Source: Pseudarthrobacter enclensis (lineage in GTDB: Bacteria > Actinomycetota > Actinomycetes > Actinomycetales > Micrococcaceae). Taken from it: a stretch of DNA of 64,000 nt. Of the stretch, positions 41,869 to 55,445 are shown in pieces. Location of the stretch: NCBI RefSeq assembly GCF_030811655.1, contig NZ_JAUSRE010000004.1:1-64000 (forward strand). The letters are read 5' to 3'. Every line of letters begins with the position of its first letter. The first letter of the stretch is position 1. The notes below the pieces were generated by a model. The model was not told the origin of the DNA and searched no databases. It saw only the letters and a program-made list of their open reading frames with translations. The translations under genes were made by a program, and so were the position numbers.

Positions 41869-42825
41869 GTGACCATCGAAGAAAAGACGGCGTCAGACGT
41901 TCGAGACGTCATCATTGTGGGCTCAGGCCCGGCGGGCTACACAGCAGCTGTCTACACCGCCAGGGCAAACCTCAAGCCTCTACTGTTGGCTGGGTCTGTG
42001 ACCGCCGGCGGCGAGCTGATGAATACCACGGACGTGGAGAACTATCCGGGGTTCCCGGAGGGAATCATGGGTCCGGACCTCATGGAAAACTTCGAGAAGC
42101 AGGCCGCACGCTTTGGCACTGAAATCCAGTTCGAAGATGTAACCGGCGTCGATTTGGAGGGCCCGGTCAAGACTGTCACGATCGCCACGGGGGAGAGCTT
42201 CAGGACCAAGGCAGTCATCCTGTCCACGGGCTCGGCGTACAGGGAGCTGGGCCTGCCCAATGAGAAGCGGCTTTCGGGACACGGCGTCAGCTGGTGCGCA
42301 ACCTGTGACGGTTTCTTTTTCAAAGACCAGGACATTGCAGTCATCGGCGGCGGTGACTCCGCCATGGAAGAGGCCCTCTTCCTCACCAAGTTTGCCAAGT
42401 CTGTCACGGTAGTCCACCGTCGCGCTTCGCTCAAGGCCTCCAAGATCATGGCGGACAGGGCACTGGCGCATGACAAGATCAAGTTCATCTGGAACAGTAC
42501 CGTGGACGATGTATTGGGGACCGACAAGGTAACCGGTCTCCGTTTGAAGAACCTCCTGGACGGCTCCTTGTCCGACCTTGCAGTGACGGGTGTTTTCGTC
42601 GCCATCGGCAACGATCCACGTACCGACCTCGTCAAAGACGTGCTCGAACTGACTGAAGCGGGGACCATCGCGGTGGAGGGCCGAAGTTCCAGGACCAGCC
42701 TCCCCGGTGTTTTCGCTGCCGGCGATGTGGTCGATCCAACCTACCGCCAGGCAATCACGGCCTCAGGCTCTGGTTGTGTGGCCGCCATTGATGTTGAGCA
42801 CTACTTGGCAGACCTGCAGTCCTGA
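41869..42825 (+). CDS. trxB: thioredoxin reductase
   Basis: A 318-residue flavoenzyme that passes electrons from NADPH to thioredoxin. [19 protein letters not shown] binds [12 protein letters not shown] has the redox pair C143 and C146, [15 protein letters not shown] is the NADPH-binding GGGxxA loop, and [15 protein letters not shown] is the C-terminal FAD motif. The start is the GTG at 41869 with GGAAGAGG upstream. It is followed by trxA 40 bp downstream, so the pair is one operon. The 225-bp gap before it contains the SigH/SigR-type promoter. Confidence 0.96.
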
Positions 42826-42865
42826 CCAGACTGTGCCGCTATTATCCGAAGAGAAAGATAAGGTT

Positions 42866-43192
42866 ATGAGCAACGCTAAAGATGTAACTGACGCCAGTTT
42901 CAACACGGATGTACTTTCTTCCGAGAAGCCCGTTATTGTTGACTTCTGGGCAGAGTGGTGCGGTCCCTGCCGTAAACTTGGCCCTATCTTGGACGAAATT
43001 TCCGTCGAGTACAGCGAAAAAGTGGACGTCGTCAAGGTCAATGTAGACGATAACCCTGCCATCGCTGCCGAGTATGGGATTACCTCCATCCCTGCCGTTT
43101 ATCTTTTCCAGGGTGGAGAAGTGAAGAACACGGTGATTGGCGCCAAGCCGAAGCAGTTCTTCGAGAAGGAATTCTCTGACGTCCTGTCCTGA
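42866..43192 (+). CDS. trxA: thioredoxin
   Basis: A 108-residue thioredoxin with the canonical WCGPC motif at residues 31-35 (C32 and C35), the cis-proline loop TSIPAVYLF and the start VTDASFNTDVL typical of the family. It reduces disulfides in cytoplasmic proteins using electrons from TrxB. The ATG at 42866 is the standard family start; the longer open frame upstream overlaps trxB. It follows trxB by 40 bp and ends before a strong terminator. Induction together with trxB through the SigH/SigR-type promoter is expected. Confidence 0.96.
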   Translation: MSNAKDVTDASFNTDVLSSEKPVIVDFWAEWCGPCRKLGPILDEISVEYSEKVDVVKVNVDDNPAIAAEYGITSIPAVYLFQGGEVKNTVIGAKPKQFFEKEFSDVLS

Positions 43193-43231
43193 TCAACGTC
43201 CCCCCGCAGGGGAGCAGCGGTCTGCAGCAGT

Positions 43232-43275
43232 AAAGAGGCGGTCATTTCCCCCAGGGATGTGGCCGCCTCTTTGCT
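43232..43275 (+). terminator. rho-independent terminator after trxA
   Basis: AAAGAGGCGG (43232-43241) pairs perfectly with CCGCCTCTTT (43263-43272), a ten-base stem with a 21-base loop. It ends the trxB-trxA operon. The parS-rich non-coding region begins immediately after it. Confidence 0.8.
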
Positions 43276-43360
43276 ATGTCTGTACGTGCCCTTCCTTGGA
43301 CAACTCGCGCCGGCCCGATATGGGGAGGGGTGCCGTGCGCGTCACGCGATGTTCAGATCT

Positions 43361-43374
43361 GTTTCACGTGAAAC
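43361..43374. other. parS site 1
   Basis: A perfect GTTTCACGTGAAAC palindrome, the ParB nucleation site. It lies 86 bp after the trxA terminator and 256 bp before the next site. Confidence 0.95.
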
Positions 43375-43616
43375 AGAGGTTGGGCGCGTCTGGCCAAACT
43401 GCTGTCCAGCTGAGATCTGGAGACGACGATCATCCGGCGCAACCCCTGTGGATCAATAAAGGACCGATCCACGACATCTCCCGCGCAGCCCCAGTCAAAC
43501 GTTGGTCGCACAAACCTCCAACGCGTAGAACCGCGAAGTGAGAGACCATGGATTCGCCCCGCTTCGCACGAAGTATCGAGGACTCTGGTAATCCCAACGT
43601 TCACTCGGGTGATCCT

Positions 43617-43630
43617 GTTTCACGTGAAAC
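43617..43630. other. parS site 2
   Basis: A perfect GTTTCACGTGAAAC palindrome with a T before it and an A after it, the 16-base consensus that also includes the flanks. The next site is 795 bp away. Confidence 0.95.
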
Positions 43631-44411
43631 AGCTACAATTTGAGCCGAGTTCTGCAGCCTGCGCTAAGCAGCAGAACACCCAACTGCCAAGGCGGCATTT
43701 TGCATGGATTGGGCCCCTTCTTGAAGTGAACAGTGTGAAACATCACCTAAAGAGCTTAAGTAGACGCTAGACAATGCAGCTGTACCCCGCTGTGGTCATC
43801 CGCGAAACTCCCGGTACCGCACGGTTTACCGTCTTCTACATACTCGATGAAAGTCCTTTCTCTGGGATTATCCCGGCGAGGAAGCTGCCCTTGAAATACC
43901 CGCCCACATCAGGGGGCCGCGGAACACCAGACCTCTGCAGATAAGTGGGCTGTCTCCTGCGATCTTCAACAACTGCATTGGTGAAAATGGCATAGTGTCC
44001 GCGGGTGCAGCAGTGCCGCCGCCTGTGCCCATGGCTCCAGGATAAGCCAGTAGGTAGCACCGGCCGTCAGGTTTGTTGCATCGAATGTAAGGAAGCCGGC
44101 GACAAATGAGGGCGGCCACGTTGCCCTCATCAAAACCTACGCACTCTCAGCCCCGAATGTAGGCAATGCCGGATAGCACCGTAAACCAAACAGGTACACA
44201 AGCAGATGCTCACCAGGACTTGGTCCTGACATAGCTCGAAGATCTACTATCGGGCGGCCGTCACTAGGGGAAGGGCGGCTGCTGAATTTAGTGACCGCCT
44301 GCTGCTACGTACCCACGGCGAACCCCATCCGTTTGCATGTGGGCCGGTCTATCCCGGGCGATGACCAACTGGCAAATTATCGAGTGCGCACTGTCCCCGA
44401 GAGAAGATCAT

Positions 44412-44425
44412 GTTTCACGTGAAAC
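44412..44425. other. parS site 3
   Basis: A perfect GTTTCACGTGAAAC palindrome. It is 795 bp from site 2 and 810 bp from site 4. Confidence 0.95.
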
Positions 44426-44949
44426 ATTCGCGGTGTGTCTGGACCCCGGACAAAGGGGCATCGGGGGAGCCGGCCCTATCCAACATCTCCTGGGGTTCTG
44501 GGAGCGAGTGCCCGTCATATCCAACTTGGACCAAAATCGGGACCGCGGGACCATAGTTGCTGTGGCAGCCACTAAAGCATTGTCCGACCTTGCATCAAGC
44601 TGCGCTGCGACGTCATTAACGATCGCCATACCTTTCGCGGTACAGCGTGGAAGGGGTGCGCCACCGCGCTGCGACGGCAAGGGGCAAGACATGGGAATGG
44701 TGGGCATTGGCGCTGCCACCCAGCGATCGAACCGACGCACTTGGCTCCCACTTTGTTGGCCGCCAAGCCGGCCACCCGGTCGCGCCCAAGCGAACGCAGC
44801 ACACCCGAAGAGGACACAGCTCCGGGGAAGGCGGGGCAGGGAGCGCAATCGCCGGAGGAACTCGCAGCCACAGTGGGACCCGAGGTTTCTTTGAAATCCA
44901 GGCGATAACGCCAACCGACCTCAATTTGGCCATCCAATCCGGGCGACTT

Positions 44950-45004
44950 CTATCCACACTTTTATCCACAGATGCTTACCGAGATATCCACACCGTTATC
45001 CACA
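44950..45004 (+). other. DnaA-box cluster A
   Basis: Four boxes in the same orientation within 55 bp: CTATCCACA at 44950 (one mismatch), TTATCCACA at 44962, ATATCCACA at 44984 (one mismatch), and TTATCCACA at 44996. Start-to-start spacings are 12, 22 and 12 bp. The two perfect copies match the strong DnaA consensus. A 12-bp pair spacing also occurs in oriC at 54951/54963. There is no AT-rich unwinding-like stretch beside it. Confidence 0.8.
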
Positions 45005-45221
45005 AGCCTTCGCGCCGCCAAACCCCCTAACATGCAGAGCGGCCTGCGTCGCGAAAGCATACTGACCAGTTCAAGTTACACCTCGCTACGCTCCTCCTGC
45101 GCGCGCCTATGTCGTCCGCGTGCTCGTTTGAGCACCAAATTAGCGGGCGTTCATCCATTTACAGGTGACAACCGCGCCAGAGCCAGCCGTATCTGACAGC
45201 GCCGGCCGACTAGGGGCGAAT

Positions 45222-45235
45222 GTTTCACGTGAAAC
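45222..45235. other. parS site 4
   Basis: A perfect GTTTCACGTGAAAC palindrome placed between DnaA-box clusters A and B (about 217 bp and 105 bp away). Confidence 0.95.
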
Positions 45236-45340
45236 CCAGCAGCCGAAGCTGCAAGCACAGGGCGACTGCGAAAGGCAAACGCCGAACAGCGTCGGCCCCT
45301 GATGCCCGGCGGGCGGAAAATCCACAGACGCTCCACCTGA

Positions 45341-45373
45341 ATATCCACAGGGTTATCCACAGGGTTATCCACC
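45341..45373 (+). other. DnaA-box cluster B
   Basis: Three boxes in direct repeat at exact 12-bp steps: ATATCCACA at 45341, TTATCCACA at 45353, TTATCCACC at 45365 (last one mismatch). A weaker AAATCCACA begins at 45318. Orientation is the same as in cluster A, so about seven boxes lie within 424 bp around parS site 4. Confidence 0.8.
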
Positions 45374-46050
45374 TCATGTTCAGCCCTCCAATGGGGGGCG
45401 CCGGGCTTGCATGTCGCTGAGGCTCCTGCAGGCACGCCCACGGATCAACACGGGCGCTGCAGCGTAATCCACCATCGCGTGGTCGGTCGTCCCTTCCGTA
45501 TGCGAGCTCGCGTCGGCCTTATTGCACGTGGGAGTAGTGCCGCGAAAGGCAGGCGATCGTTCCTCGACGAATCGATGACGTCCGTCGCCAGAGTGGCTGT
45601 TCCGGGCCCAGGGCCATAAAGTTCATTTGTGATCAGGAGCGCCCGGGGGAGCAGCCTCTGCGCCCGGATCACCCACTCCCGCCGCCGTACGTGCTCGACT
45701 CTACATCGAGAATTCTGGCCTCCATTGCGAAGACTGCCGTACTACGGCCGCTTGGGAATTCCCATCGCACAATCCCAAACAGGGGGAGTCACGGGCATCT
45801 CACTTCAGGTGCACACGTGGCTACCACATGCGGCGCTGCCGTTTGCCTCTGCGAGTATTGTCTTTCCCCACCTCAGACATTCGTCCCCGCCAACTACCAA
45901 AGAGCTTGGCTACGTCGCGGCGGAATTTAGGGGTCGAACGTGCCCGGAAGTCACGGTCCAACGGGAATTACCAGAACCAAGACTAAGGGGAGTCTCACAG
46001 TCGCCTCAACTTTCATCGCACCTGGCCCGGGGCGATCGGCCGGATAGCCT

Positions 46051-46064
46051 GTTTCACGCGAAAC
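46051..46064. other. near-match parS site
   Basis: GTTTCACGCGAAAC has one change (T to C) from the parS consensus, which breaks the palindrome centre. Its position, 829 bp after site 4 and 807 bp before site 6, fits the regular spacing. It may be a weakened site or a decaying copy. Confidence 0.6.
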
Positions 46065-46164
46065 CGCGGAGCATCGTCGCTGTCTGCGGCATGACCCGCT
46101 GAGAAGCCGGCGGAGGAGTCTGCCCGTGAAAGGAGCTCCCCTGGTACCCCCATCGCGAGCTAAC

Positions 46165-46178
46165 GTTTCACGTGAAAC
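46165..46178. other. parS site 5
   Basis: A perfect GTTTCACGTGAAAC palindrome 114 bp after the near-match site. Confidence 0.95.
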
Positions 46179-46857
46179 ACTCCACTTTCAGGGCTGCGAA
46201 TCCGGCATGCCCCTCAGGAGGATAAACCCCACCGCAAATATCCCGCCCACGGGATAGGCAGGGGATAACTGTTATCAGGATGACGAAACCCTACACCGCG
46301 AGGACCCACCATGCTTTATGTGGACGGCTGCGCGGTAGCCGCACACGGTGTGTGGCGGATTTCCGGAGTAGACTCGACCACCGCGCGGCAAGACATCGGC
46401 ACCGGTACCATTCAAACACTGTTGACACGCACTAATCGACCCACAACTTGGCGCTAGCCGCAACGTCCCGTCCGGAATCACATGCCCCCAAACGGGGAAG
46501 CTCCACGATCGATCTCTTCTGATGTGGTTGAAGGGCAATAGGCATAAGGAAGCCCTTGGCGACTACTCACCTCACCACCGGTTGGAGGCGGCGGCCCATA
46601 ATATGGCCAAACCATCGTCCTAGTATTCGATCCGGGAGGTACAGCAGATCGCCAGGTATCGCAGGCAGGCCCTCAATTAGTTCCGCTTTGGCTGCTGAAG
46701 GGATCTATCCCCGTCGAAAGCCAGAATTTGCCTAGGAGGGCCATAAAACGCAGCAGCAGCAGCCGAAGGAGTGAGAATCGCGTAGGAAGTGTGACTCGAT
46801 GGGCTGCGCCGCCCTACCCAGGGCAAAACCTCTTTGTTGTACCGCGGCTCACGAAGC

Positions 46858-46871
46858 GTTTCACGTGAAAC
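46858..46871. other. parS site 6
   Basis: A perfect GTTTCACGTGAAAC palindrome, 693 bp after site 5 and about 390 bp before the parB terminator. Confidence 0.95.
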
Positions 46872-47252
46872 GTACCTGGACGGGACGGGGACAGTCAGTT
46901 GCACATTTCACCCGCACCGGAATGCGGCCGAGCCCGACTGAGCCTCCACGTGCGAAAAACCGCAGTGCGACACTCGCTACTAGTGATATTCAAGCAGAAA
47001 AACACTCGCTTTCCCACGAAAGCTGTCTCAGGAGTGAGGGGAGCGGCAAGTCCCCGCCAATCGTGTCGGCGCTCTAAAGTGCAGACAAAAACATGCGCAC
47101 CATCTCGCGACGTCGATTCGACAGCATTCGCAGGAAGACGCCCATAAAGCATGCATCAGCAAAGCCGACGTGACTGCCACAGACAACCCAGCCACAAGTC
47201 TGTGGCCACTCGAACCCATGAACGGGAAACTCTGAGAATGGCAGCAGAAACA

Positions 47253-47287
47253 CCTGAGGCCCCGCTCGTCGTGAACGGGGCCTCAGG
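47253..47287 (-). terminator. terminator after parB
   Basis: CCTGAGGCCCCG (47253-47264) and CGGGGCCTCAGG (47276-47287) form a perfect 12-base stem with an 11-base loop. On the minus strand it is followed by TGTTTCTGCTG. It ends the leftward operon, eight bases past the parB stop. Confidence 0.8.
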
Positions 47288-47294
47288 AGAGGTA

Positions 47295-48596
47295 CTAGTT
47301 TGTAGAACCAGGCGCTAGAACGTCCATGATGCGGTTAAGGTCCTCTACGCTGGCAAATTCAATGCTGACCTTGCCCTTACGGACTCCGAGCGAGATCTTC
47401 ACGTTGGTATCAAGCCGGTCTGACAGCGAGGACGCGAGGTAGTCCAGGCGTTCGTGCCGCGCACCCGGACGTGGGATGTTGTTCTTGGCCGGCTTGGCGG
47501 GATCCTGGTAAAGCGTCACGGCTTCCTCGGTGGCACGCACGGACATGCCTTCCGCCACAATCCGTTGGGCCAGTCGCTCCATTGCGGCGGCATCAGGGAG
47601 CGAAAGAAGTGAACGGGCGTGGCCCGCGGACAACACTCCCGCTGCAACCCGCCGCTGCACAAGCGGGGGAAGTTTCAAGAGACGCAGTGTGTTGGACACC
47701 TGCGGCCGTGAACGGCCGATACGGTCCGCCAGTTGTTCGTGGGTTGTACCGAAGTCCTCGAGGAGCTGCTGGTACGCTGCAGCCTCTTCCAGGGGATTCA
47801 GCTGGCTGCGGTGGAGGTTCTCCAGCAGCGCGTCGCGGAGGAGGTCGTCATCGGTGGTGTCACGGATAATCGCCGGGATGGTGTCGAGCCCTGCAGCCTG
47901 GACAGCGCGCCACCGGCGTTCACCCATGACAAGTTCATAGGATTCACTACCGGATTCGGTTGAAGTGCGGACAACAATTGGCTGCAGCACCCCAATTTCG
48001 CGGACCGAGTGCACCAACTCAGCCATGTCATCCTCATCGAAGACATTCCGGGGCTGTTTCCGGTTCGGGTGGATGTCGGCCACGGGGATCTCAGCGAACC
48101 GTGCACCGGGAACTTCAACAAGCTCAACGCCCGAGTCACCGGACCTCCCTTCCTCAACGATCGGCTCGGAAGGGCTCGGAACATCCGAAGGCTGCGCAAC
48201 AGCGGAAACCTCTGTGGCCGGGTCCGCTTCAACAGGTGATTTGGGGCCGACCGGGCTGGCCGGCGAGGACTCTCGCGCAGCTGTCTTCTTCACCGGAGCA
48301 GTGGAAGCGGGCTTCTTCTCGTCACTGCCCTTTCCTGGGACTGACTTTGAGTCGGCAGACTTGGCTGAAGACGAACGGGCAGCGGGAACGTCCGCTTCCC
48401 TGTCCGGCGCCTTTACTGCTGCATCCTCAGTGTCTGCCGGCACCTGCTCTGACGGGTCCGTCTTTCGACGGCCTTCCGGGAAGAACAAATCCACAGGCCG
48501 CGATACCGCCCCACTGTTCCCGGAACCATTGGACGCGGCGGAACTTGGAATCAGTGCGCCAAGACCGCGGCCTAGGCCCCGTCGCTTTTCGCTCAT
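47295..48596 (-). CDS. parB: chromosome partitioning protein ParB
   Basis: A 433-residue CTP-dependent DNA clamp that loads at parS and organises the origin. The start [13 protein letters not shown] is the ParA-activating N-terminus. Residues 45-160 are an unusually long Ala/Ser/Pro/Lys-rich linker. The CTP-binding core has GERRWRA at 225-231 and [10 protein letters not shown] at 259-268. The helix-turn-helix with [18 protein letters not shown] contacts parS, and the C-terminus from about 380 dimerises. GGAGG nine bases before the ATG at 48596 supports the start. It is the last gene of the leftward operon and adjoins the parS array. Confidence 0.96.
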
Positions 48597-48662
48597 GGGT
48601 AAATCCCTCCAGTGGTAGAGCCGGGTACAGCCCGGCTCCGATGCGTTGCGGTATTGAAGATT

Positions 48663-49745
48663 CTAGCGTTCCGCTATTTCAGCGGCGGCTTCCAAATAGG
48701 ACAGGGCCCCACTCGACGAGGGGTCGTAAGTCATGACCGTCTGTTGGTAGCTCGGAGCTTCGGAAATCCGCACAGACCGCGGGACGACGGCCGACAGCAC
48801 CTGATCGGGGAAATGCTGGCGTACTTCCGCCGCGACCTGGGCAGCTAGATTGGTGCGCCCGTCATACATGGTGAGCAGGATGGTCGAAACGACAAGGTCA
48901 GCGTTGAGGTGCTTCTGGATCATCTCGATGTTCTTGAGGAGCTGGCTAAGACCCTCAAGAGCGTAGTACTCGCACTGAATGGGGATCAGCACTTCACTTG
49001 CCGCGCAGAAAGCGTTGACCGTCAACAGGCCCAGGCTGGGGGGACAGTCGATGAAGACGTAGTCCAGACGCTCCTCACCGTTCTTCTCCCGCGTCTTCGC
49101 ATAGACGTCAATGGCGCGGCGCAGGCGCTGCTCGCGGGCCACCAGGGACACGAGCTCAATCTCCGCACCCGCAAGGTGGATCGTAGCGGGCGCGCAAATC
49201 AGCTTGCCGATATCGGGGCATGGAGCCACCACATCAGCAAGGGGGACGTCGTTGATCAAAACATCATAGATGCTGTCAACGTCCGCATGGTGTTCGATAC
49301 CCAAAGCGGTGGAGGCGTTGCCCTGGGGATCAATGTCAATAACCATGACGTTCAAGCCCGCGGCTGCCAGGGCGGCCGCGATGTTTACGGTGGTGGTGGT
49401 TTTCCCAACCCCGCCCTTTTGGTTTGACACCGTGAAGATGCGGGTTTCCTCAGGGCGAGGGAGCTGGCGTCCCATCAGCCGCTCACGGCGCTTGGTCTCG
49501 TGCGCAAGCTCCCTGGCAATCGGGCTGGAATCGTCGATCGCGTCGATGACATTGGATCGACCAGCAGAGGTTGTTTCACGTGAAACTGCGTTACTTGGGG
49601 AGGAGGAAGAAACCGCTTTAGGGTGATTCCCACCCCTGCCAGGGGCCATACCGGTCCCTGCGAGGCCGGACCCAGCGACAGAACGTGCCGACCCCAAGGA
49701 CACAAACGGCGGGATCCGTTGTGCGGAGGCTTCACTACTGGTCAC
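48663..49745 (-). CDS. parA: chromosome partitioning ATPase ParA (Soj)
   Basis: A 360-residue deviant Walker ATPase that positions ParB-parS complexes. KGGVGKTT at 110-117 is the deviant Walker A, IDIDPQGNASTALG the switch I region and YVFIDCPPSLG the Walker B-like strand. The first 95 residues are a variable N-terminal extension; residues 54-58 read VSRET because a parS palindrome (49573-49586) lies inside the coding sequence. The start is a GTG at 49745; an ATG at 49649 is an alternative. ParA, ParB and the parS array are therefore adjacent. It is 66 bp upstream of parB in the same operon. Confidence 0.95.
   Translation of the reverse strand: MTSSEASAQRIPPFVSLGSARSVAGSGLAGTGMAPGRGGNHPKAVSSSSPSNAVSRETTSAGRSNVIDAIDDSSPIARELAHETKRRERLMGRQLPRPEETRIFTVSNQKGGVGKTTTTVNIAAALAAAGLNVMVIDIDPQGNASTALGIEHHADVDSIYDVLINDVPLADVVAPCPDIGKLICAPATIHLAGAEIELVSLVAREQRLRRAIDVYAKTREKNGEERLDYVFIDCPPSLGLLTVNAFCAASEVLIPIQCEYYALEGLSQLLKNIEMIQKHLNADLVVSTILLTMYDGRTNLAAQVAAEVRQHFPDQVLSAVVPRSVRISEAPSYQQTVMTYDPSSSGALSYLEAAAEIAER
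49573..49586. other. parS site 7, inside parA
   Basis: A perfect GTTTCACGTGAAAC palindrome within the 5' part of parA, read through as VSRET. It is the seventh perfect site, 2.7 kb from site 6. Confidence 0.95.
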
Positions 49746-53019: not shown

Positions 53020-53486
53020 GTTAGTTACTCCAGTGGATCAAAGGTGCGCCCACCCGATCAGTATGGGGAAGAACTGGCCGACGCTAAGTTTTGTATGTGC
53101 ACGCTTACCCCGGCTCCCCAGGCGCACTGCACTTGGAAAGTTCAAATGGGGCCGAAAAGCGGACACAAAGGACTTCACAACGTTAGGGCAATCCGATAGG
53201 CGGAGTCAAACCGGAGAAGCCGCGGCCGGATGTCCCCAGCTGTGCCTAAGTATCCCCAACAGCCTGTGGATGAAGTGGCTCACAAGGCTGTCTTACGAAC
53301 CACACCCGTGTAATTATCCACAGCCGGATAGCCAGCTATCTTCTAGGCTTTTCATCACCTAGAGTGTCCCAGTAGCCGATTATCCACGGGCTGTGCATAA
53401 CCCTGTGGATGAAGTTGGGCCAGGACCTGGTTCCGGACTTGGGCTGCAAACAACGCAGGCACGGCAAGTTTTGAGGGAACCGATTG
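53020..53486. promoter_or_regulatory. rpmH-dnaA divergent regulatory region with DnaA boxes
   Basis: This 467-bp gap carries the divergent promoters of rpmH and dnaA. DnaA-box-like elements are TTATCCACA at 53314-53322 (perfect), TTATCCACG at 53380-53388, and TGTGGATGA at 53265-53273 and 53404-53412. Their position upstream of dnaA fits autoregulation. No convincing -35/-10 pair was fixed. Confidence 0.75.
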
Positions 53487-54908: not shown

Positions 54909-55445
54909 TCCACAGCGGGCCCGGCACTCTATACCTTATTAACAGGGGTATGTGGATAAGCCTGTGGATACTTAAGGGGACAAGCGCGGTTAATGGGCTT
55001 AAAACCCTTAAGCCGTCTGTGGATCGTTAAAAATGCCGTTTTGCGTTGTCCCCATCCACACCCTGTTTAAAACCCAGGTAACGCACACACCGTGAACAGG
55101 GCTTAACCGCGGATCCGTGGGGCAGGATCGGGTTATCCACAGTTTCCACAGCAGTTATTAACACTACGAATCCCAAAAAATTGAAATCCCTCAAACAACA
55201 AGATCGATCCGCACGTTCGTCGAGGGGGCCTGCCGGCCCCAGGAAGGGACGGGCCTGTTCCTGGGGGATGGGTTAATCCCCGTTCTTCCGGCTAAGCTGT
55301 CAGCAGCGCTCCCATCCCTGGGTTTTCGTGTGGTTTCCGTCTTCATGGACCATGCACCAGCCGGGGTGCGCCCAACTTCTTCCGGAGTTTCCCCGCGAAA
55401 TTCCCGGGTTTACATGGCAGCAGCAATGAAAGGCGGCACCCTTCC
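54909..55445. other. chromosomal origin oriC
   Basis: The 537-bp dnaA-dnaN gap contains DnaA boxes TGTGGATAA at 54951-54959 and TGTGGATAC at 54963-54971 (12-bp spacing), TGTGGATCG at 55018, and TTATCCACA at 55133-55141, with weaker copies around 55053 and 55142. An AT-rich stretch at about 55154-55205 is the likely unwinding element. Location and content match the known actinobacterial oriC position. Confidence 0.88.

Follow-up and report, generated by a model that had tools for sequence, protein, structure and literature searches.

A predicted DnaA-box module of constant geometry within the gene-free parS array of Pseudarthrobacter enclensis and its relatives

In Caulobacter crescentus, the initiator DnaA binds the parS/Cori centromere, and levels of DnaA too low to support replication still move parS (Mera et al. 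2014, as summarized in the review PMC6399470). The same review describes RctB, an initiator bound at the centromere in Vibrio cholerae, and ParB and DnaA reportedly interact directly in Deinococcus radiodurans and V. cholerae (PMC7022226). Examples of cis-acting elements that link the start of replication to the start of segregation are few, and how bacteria make this link is an open question. A candidate for such an element is described here in the actinobacterium Pseudarthrobacter enclensis, in a stretch of 64,000 nucleotides (hereafter the window, whose numbering is used throughout) on contig C4; the genome totals 4.74 Mb and is assembled into 59 contigs. Between the genes trxA and parB lies an interval that carries an array of parS sites and, in its middle, two clusters of DnaA-box-like sequences, whose placement relative to each other and to parS is conserved among relatives.

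An original prediction made from the window had placed six perfect parS sites and one near-match in this interval, and a motif search of window and genome confirmed them: GTTTCACGTGAAAC occurs six times, and GTTTCACGCGAAAC, with one mismatch, is found at 46051. With up to two mismatches allowed, eight matches occur in the 64 kb, where 0.15 would be expected. The whole genome holds eight sites with at most one mismatch, seven of them in 43276–47252 and the eighth in parA, all no more than 12 kb from oriC. The concentration is general to the genus, since 11 genus genomes searched whole hold 8–10 such sites each, and 91 of these 102 sites fall in the trxA–parB interval. Among the matches listed, the site outside the interval could be read in nine of the 11 genomes and lies within parA in all nine. 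The interval and its main features are as follows (no strand applies unless one is given; parS sites are from the motif search of window and genome).

43276..47252: gene-free parS and DnaA-box interval, likely centromere (codon scores, open reading frame shuffles, Pfam, protein and Rfam searches)
43361..43374: parS, perfect
43617..43630: parS, perfect
44412..44425: parS, perfect
44950..45004, plus strand: DnaA-box cluster 1, with boxes at 44950, 44962 (perfect), 44984 and 44996 (perfect), 12-bp steps inside each pair, conserved in the clade
45100..45174: A+T bump between the clusters (clade mean A+T), with a weak CCAAATT-like motif (45133–45144)
45222..45235: module parS, perfect, between both DnaA-box clusters, in a placement conserved in the genus
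45341..45373, plus strand: DnaA-box cluster 2, with boxes at 45341, 45353 (perfect) and 45365, in 12-bp steps
46051..46064: parS near-match, one mismatch
46165..46178: parS, perfect
46858..46871: parS, perfect
49573..49586: parS, perfect, the sole copy outside the interval, within the parA coding sequence

The predicted DnaA boxes, identified as motif matches to a consensus, comprise seven 9-mers in mid-interval that share the plus strand and form two groups, one on either side of the parS at 45222. On the minus strand there is a lone match, at 43447, with one mismatch. The same motifs emerge when words are ranked by enrichment over 34 intervals of the genus, where the top words are parS, DnaA-box words and their overlaps. 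The word TGTGGATAA is present in 34 of 34 intervals (79 copies), compared with 0.6 intervals expected.

The comparison with relatives drew on three sets: regions from 57 of 58 genomes (G050 omitted), 40 of 149 genomes, and the best 80 of a longer match list, which gave 79 loci. Pooled with the window they make 178 entries, of which two were removed for too little alignment and 13 as near-duplicates, leaving 163 in a midpoint-rooted FastTree phylogeny of eight proteins. Named relatives with close ParB proteins belong to Arthrobacter, Pseudarthrobacter and Paenarthrobacter, with Sinomonas more distant. The trxA–parB interval was unreadable in 16 of the 163, four inside the module-bearing clade (L055, L064, L144 and L158) and 12 outside it, so that 61 clade intervals and 86 outside intervals could be read. 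The clade itself has 65 tips, including those four, with support 1.0, and is made up of the own genus (59 tips, support 0.81), four Sinomonas-type genomes and two genomes of one further genus.

A module was called where at least three boxes (at most one mismatch each), at least one of them perfect, fell within 520 bp around a gap of at least 240 bp. By this rule a module is called in 58 of the 61 readable clade intervals, in 0 of the 86 outside and in 0 of 870 first-order shuffles; a DnaA-box cluster separate from the origin is thus kept at a fixed locus across nearly the entire clade. Two of the uncalled intervals, L066 and L070, retain one perfect box on each side, 331–332 bp apart. In the third, L139, transposase-type open reading frames (L139:13437-14884) lie between the two remaining boxes and have probably disrupted the module by a natural event. 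Among 101 parS-bearing loci outside the 61, five have at least two boxes within 150 bp of a parS; two of these (L144 and L158) are clade members, and the other three look like chance.

The positions of the motifs are far more constant than the DNA between them. In 52 modules of the own genus the gap between the clusters is 337 ± 21 bp, whereas the standard deviation is 773 bp for the distance from trxA to the module and 389 bp for that from the module to parB. The spacer between the clusters is little more alike than shuffled sequence (median identity 0.515 versus 0.495; 41 genomes), and an alignment of 46 module cores showed little conserved besides parS and the boxes. Of 58 modules, 46 have a parS in the gap that separates the clusters, compared with 24.7 expected under random placement. 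In 44 own-genus modules the distance from this parS to cluster 2 has a standard deviation of 11.5 bp, with 22 modules falling within 119–123 bp, whereas the nearest outer parS on either side varies with standard deviations of 320 and 422 bp; the linker between the module parS and cluster 2 has a median identity of 0.32 versus 0.31 when shuffled (20 modules of equal length). Eight own-genus modules lack an internal parS, and seven of these have one 65–91 bp beyond cluster 2, so that a parS adjoins cluster 2 in 51 of the 52 own-genus genomes with a called module, where 17.4 would be expected. This tie to parS at a fixed distance is a feature of the own genus; both genomes of the further genus have their parS 37 bp from cluster 1 instead. 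The simplest reading of these patterns is selection on motif placement.

The gap lengths are also periodic, with a circular R of 0.61 at a period of 11.55 that was reached in 0 of 2000 jittered sets. Helical phasing was considered and set aside, as gain and loss of boxes on a 12-bp grid combined with a fixed distance yields the same pattern; phasing is compatible with the data but unproven. Between the clusters, the clade mean A+T rises to 0.47–0.49 versus 0.41 across the intervals. The CCAAATT-like motif within this bump is weak (expectation-maximization log-likelihood 42.3 versus 29.8–34.2 in six shuffles, with 120 seeds for the real and 60 for the shuffled data), and the segment 45100–45174 is a possible DNA-bending site.

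The prediction that no frame in 43276–47252 looks coding was borne out by every approach applied. A codon model trained on 20 genes of the window, which themselves score 0.21–0.74 bits per codon, found no open reading frame of at least 60 amino acids with a positive score in the interval. The longest stop-to-stop stretch there, 199 codons, was reached by 13 of 20 shuffles. Ten open reading frames of the interval had no Pfam match up to E = 0.1 (10 of 10). The two longest were compared with 5.8 billion proteins; one had no match, for the other the sole relative sits on one contig of 1.9 kb, and no conserved interval protein emerged. An Rfam scan of 42000–49000 gave no match up to E = 1. A hidden gene or RNA in the window's interval was rejected for lack of support from these Pfam, protein-family and Rfam searches, and a plasmid origin of the interval for lack of a match among 72,556 plasmid records.

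Across the clade, 2038 open reading frames were scored in the 61 intervals with a threshold of 20 bits, and 57 of the 61 have none above it. The four exceptions are L070, whose interval has Pfam integrase-core and IS110 transposase domains (the integrase core is presumably IS3-like), L139, with an integrase core, L124, with DDE_Tnp_1, and L149, where the DDE_Tnp_1 match is weak and under the curated cut-off. The comparison of relatives bears out a gene-free interval, although the original prediction had missed the conserved DnaA-box module within it.

The interval has had other contents elsewhere in the family. The prediction had named an N-acetylmuramoyl-L-alanine amidase gene and an acetyltransferase gene as usual at this place in related Micrococcaceae and absent here. 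A CwlM-type amidase was found by tblastn (four queries, more than 60 bits) in 14 of the 86 outside intervals and in none of the 61 clade intervals, in a scan that may miss remote amidases, and a GNAT acetyltransferase gene occupies the interval of some genomes outside the clade. The statement is right for some relatives, but the absence is genus-wide rather than peculiar to this genome; full-length CwlM, a protein essential for cell-wall control in mycobacteria, was found in 0 of 25 genus genomes, this one included. Outside the clade the interval varies, containing the amidase, the acetyltransferase, other open reading frames or nearly nothing. In several genera of the family parS sites occur in the interval but no DnaA module is called there, and Arthrobacter koreensis and Arthrobacter gandavensis keep the amidase there alongside eight and seven parS sites, respectively. 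In the clade the interval ranges from 3.9 to 9.4 kb. A plausible order of events would begin with the gathering of parS sites, followed by loss of the genes from the interval and by a single origin of the DnaA module in the clade's ancestor.

The genes at the borders, trxA on the plus strand and parB on the minus strand, are about 4.1 kb apart and point inward. Both cognate partition genes are present, ParB being recognized through Pfam and parA through position and homologs.

42866..43192, plus strand: trxA (thioredoxin), left border gene (open reading frame; homologs 89–98% identical in the genus loci where found)
43229..43275, plus strand: imperfect 22-bp hairpin 3' of trxA, likely terminator (inverted repeat, 82% complementary; unlisted by the terminator scan)
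47253..47287, minus strand: predicted intrinsic terminator of parB (15-bp stem and T-rich tail)
47295..48596, minus strand: parB, right border gene (Pfam ParB_N, HTH_ParB and ParB_C)
48663..49745, minus strand: presumed parA, adjoining parB (position and homologs)

The view that two convergent terminators insulate the interval fits this genome in that the parB side is clear, but the trxA hairpin is imperfect and the arrangement is no fixed rule of the clade: of the 61 clade intervals, 36 have a strong hairpin no more than 150 bp from trxA and 11 have one that close to parB, compared with 4 of 300 internal segments. Because the module is about 1.7 kb from trxA and about 1.9 kb from parB, and both genes point toward it, it is not the promoter of either.

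The canonical origin lies about 9.5 kb from the module and is intact.

53265..53412: DnaA boxes upstream of dnaA (motif search)
54909..55445, plus strand: canonical oriC between dnaA and dnaN, with conserved boxes and an A+T-rich 50-mer of 30% G+C (motif and composition)

DnaA boxes and an A+T-rich 50-mer (26–32% G+C) were present between dnaA and dnaN in all 35 of the genus loci read, this genome included, which indicates that the module is not a substitute for oriC. The module has no A+T-rich unwinding stretch, its mean A+T peaking at about 0.5, and on this composition together with the intact dnaA–dnaN origin a displaced or second oriC was rejected.

Two further groups of DnaA boxes were observed near the origin. 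In five genus genomes (L217:4720-5162 on contig C14, and L222–L225), a cluster whose two perfect boxes are separated by about 300 bp lies upstream of an open reading frame presumed to encode the DnaB helicase; in four complete genomes it is 45–48 kb to the left of the parS array, and it possibly reflects control of the replicative helicase gene by DnaA. In five genus genomes (L216:6306-7421, that is, contig C4 70306-71421, and L218–L221), a dense cluster on mixed strands lies about 15 kb beyond oriC; in this genome it has 12 boxes with at most one mismatch, just to the right of the window.

The trxA–parB interval is likely a dedicated centromere that includes a docking site for DnaA, where initiator and ParB would each affect what the other does, although this reading as a whole stands at about even odds. 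In a model of this kind, ParB would load at parS and slide or spread over silent DNA, and DnaA, probably in its ATP-bound form, would make short oligomers on the head-to-tail boxes at their 12-bp steps. That the clusters keep their distance suggests a meeting of the oligomers by looping, which would hold them face to face with ParB-bound parS in or beside the loop, and the steady position of parS points to a part for ParB. The module is among the first DNA to be copied once replication has started, and it could then sense or alter the state of DnaA, lower its activity and prevent re-initiation, as datA does (PMC10950094), and gate the start of partition and the release of the centromere, as DnaA does at the Caulobacter centromere (PMC6399470). 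It is likely that replication initiation and chromosome segregation influence each other through the module, and the signal could run in either direction. A more specific and rather doubtful version sees a rigid DnaA–ParB switch, in which two DnaA oligomers, seated on phased boxes, form a loop that encloses or adjoins parS, the nucleotide state of DnaA times ParB loading and the release of the new centromere, and ParB shuts off further initiation; such a switch would have been built once in the Arthrobacter–Sinomonas ancestor, in DNA vacated by genes and re-entered by transposases alone.

Several observations weigh against coupling of DnaA to ParB in the interval. The boxes are matches to a consensus, many with one mismatch, and the 9-mer GCGGTGGCC is enriched as well (19 of 34 genus intervals versus 4.2 expected), the only other 9-mer among the words listed. 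The genomes are related, so that the counts are not independent events, and because the box grid reproduces the quantisation of about 11.5 bp, the claim should extend to a fixed distance and not to phase. L130 is the one of the 52 genus genomes without a parS near cluster 2. In the four Sinomonas-type genomes the gap between the clusters never contains a parS, and the three with listed surroundings have none from about 60 bp before to 560 bp after the first box; modules without a nearby parS imply that coupling is not universal to the module. The gene-free picture is not entirely clean either, as the longest open stretch exceeds that of all 20 shuffles in six of the 61 clade intervals (L059, L060, L061, L124, L132 and L143), of which only L124, with its transposase, passes the codon threshold. 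Finally, with other DnaA-box clusters near the origin, the module may be one of several sites that share a parS-independent role.

That last point leads to the possibility, tentative and on the unlikely side, that the module titrates or inactivates DnaA in the manner of datA or other DnaA-box clusters, acts on initiation alone, and sits in safe, silent DNA near the origin without any link to ParB. The layout of datA consists of separated box groups with a possible bend between them, and two clusters a set distance apart, with higher A+T between them, look like a looped site of that type that regulates DnaA. The Sinomonas-type modules without parS between the clusters fit this explanation, as do the further clusters upstream of the dnaB-like open reading frame and about 15 kb to the right of oriC; clusters in Streptomyces and Bacillus subtilis are described as analogues of datA in PMC10950094. 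It does not predict a parS adjoining cluster 2 in 51 of 52 genomes, nor that seven of the eight modules lacking it on one side have it on the other. For B. subtilis, moreover, the review PMC5295017 reports that early initiation became strong only once six clusters were removed, and at another point it states that no cluster with a significant role has been identified. Same-strand boxes in 12-bp steps near dnaA, together with the existence of bipartite origins (described in PMC5295017), might instead point to an auxiliary or former origin or to one half of a bipartite oriC, which is improbable given the composition of the module and the A+T-rich stretch retained between dnaA and dnaN in all 35 loci.

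The prediction of a dedicated centromere gains, as far as a gene-free array goes, from the concentration of parS and from the 57 gene-free clade intervals; freedom from transcription, which would let ParB spread, was proposed with it, but a ParB-spreading zone on its own leaves the DnaA-box module unexplained. That such a zone is all there is, with the boxes incidental, would agree with the genus-wide parS array and lack of genes and with the many genera of the family that have parS here without a called module; it is nonetheless very improbable, as throughout the clade the boxes have kept their position, strand and spacing in DNA that has otherwise turned over almost completely. Hardly credible at all is a relic of lost cwlM and acetyltransferase genes that is yet to be deleted and in which the motifs are leftovers. 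The presence of cwlM here in some relatives and its loss from the genus speak for a relic, whereas no CwlM match above 60 bits remains in any of the 61 clade intervals, and the length stays at 3.9–9.4 kb with the motifs holding position in a randomised spacer.

More generally, the locus shows a chromosome gathering nearly its whole centromere in a single gene-free stretch, and, across a clade within a family of culturable soil bacteria, a compact element in which initiator and centromere motifs stand at fixed distances with the intervening DNA free to vary. Mutations can be aimed at one kind of site while the other, and every gene, is left intact, which makes the coupling directly testable. 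Unlike other ParABS centromeres, it has nearly all parS in one interval beside parB; in other species parS sites are scattered through genes. Shared with chromosomal ParABS centromeres are the multiple parS sites near oriC and parAB (as described in PMC7022226 and PMC5461407).

Like datA and DARS of Escherichia coli and the clusters of B. subtilis and Streptomyces, the module is a group of DnaA boxes apart from the origin, of a kind thought to restrain initiation, but the clusters described in PMC10950094 and PMC5295017 contain, in those descriptions, no parS and lie in no centromere. A further difference from datA is that no IHF site has been shown in the module, for which a datA-like role is a sequence-based proposal. 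In rctA/parS2 of V. cholerae chromosome II, a partition site likewise lies within initiator-binding regulatory DNA according to PMC6399470, although the initiator described there is RctB, with two DNA-binding domains, and the sites here are DnaA boxes. Among the nearest counterparts is parS/Cori of Caulobacter, where recognition sites of the initiator also lie within the parS region near the origin, as that review outlines; the corresponding trait, DnaA boxes next to parS, is found here in 51 of the 52 genus genomes with a called module. In contrast to Caulobacter, two same-strand clusters with 12-bp steps flank or adjoin parS at a fixed distance, within a gene-free array of 6–12 parS sites, mostly 4–7 kb long, that is known in this actinobacterium from its sequence motifs. 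Among papers under open licences, none on DnaA boxes at an Arthrobacter centromere was found; the candidate element described here is one in which the spacing of DnaA boxes and parS is kept and the sequence between them is not.

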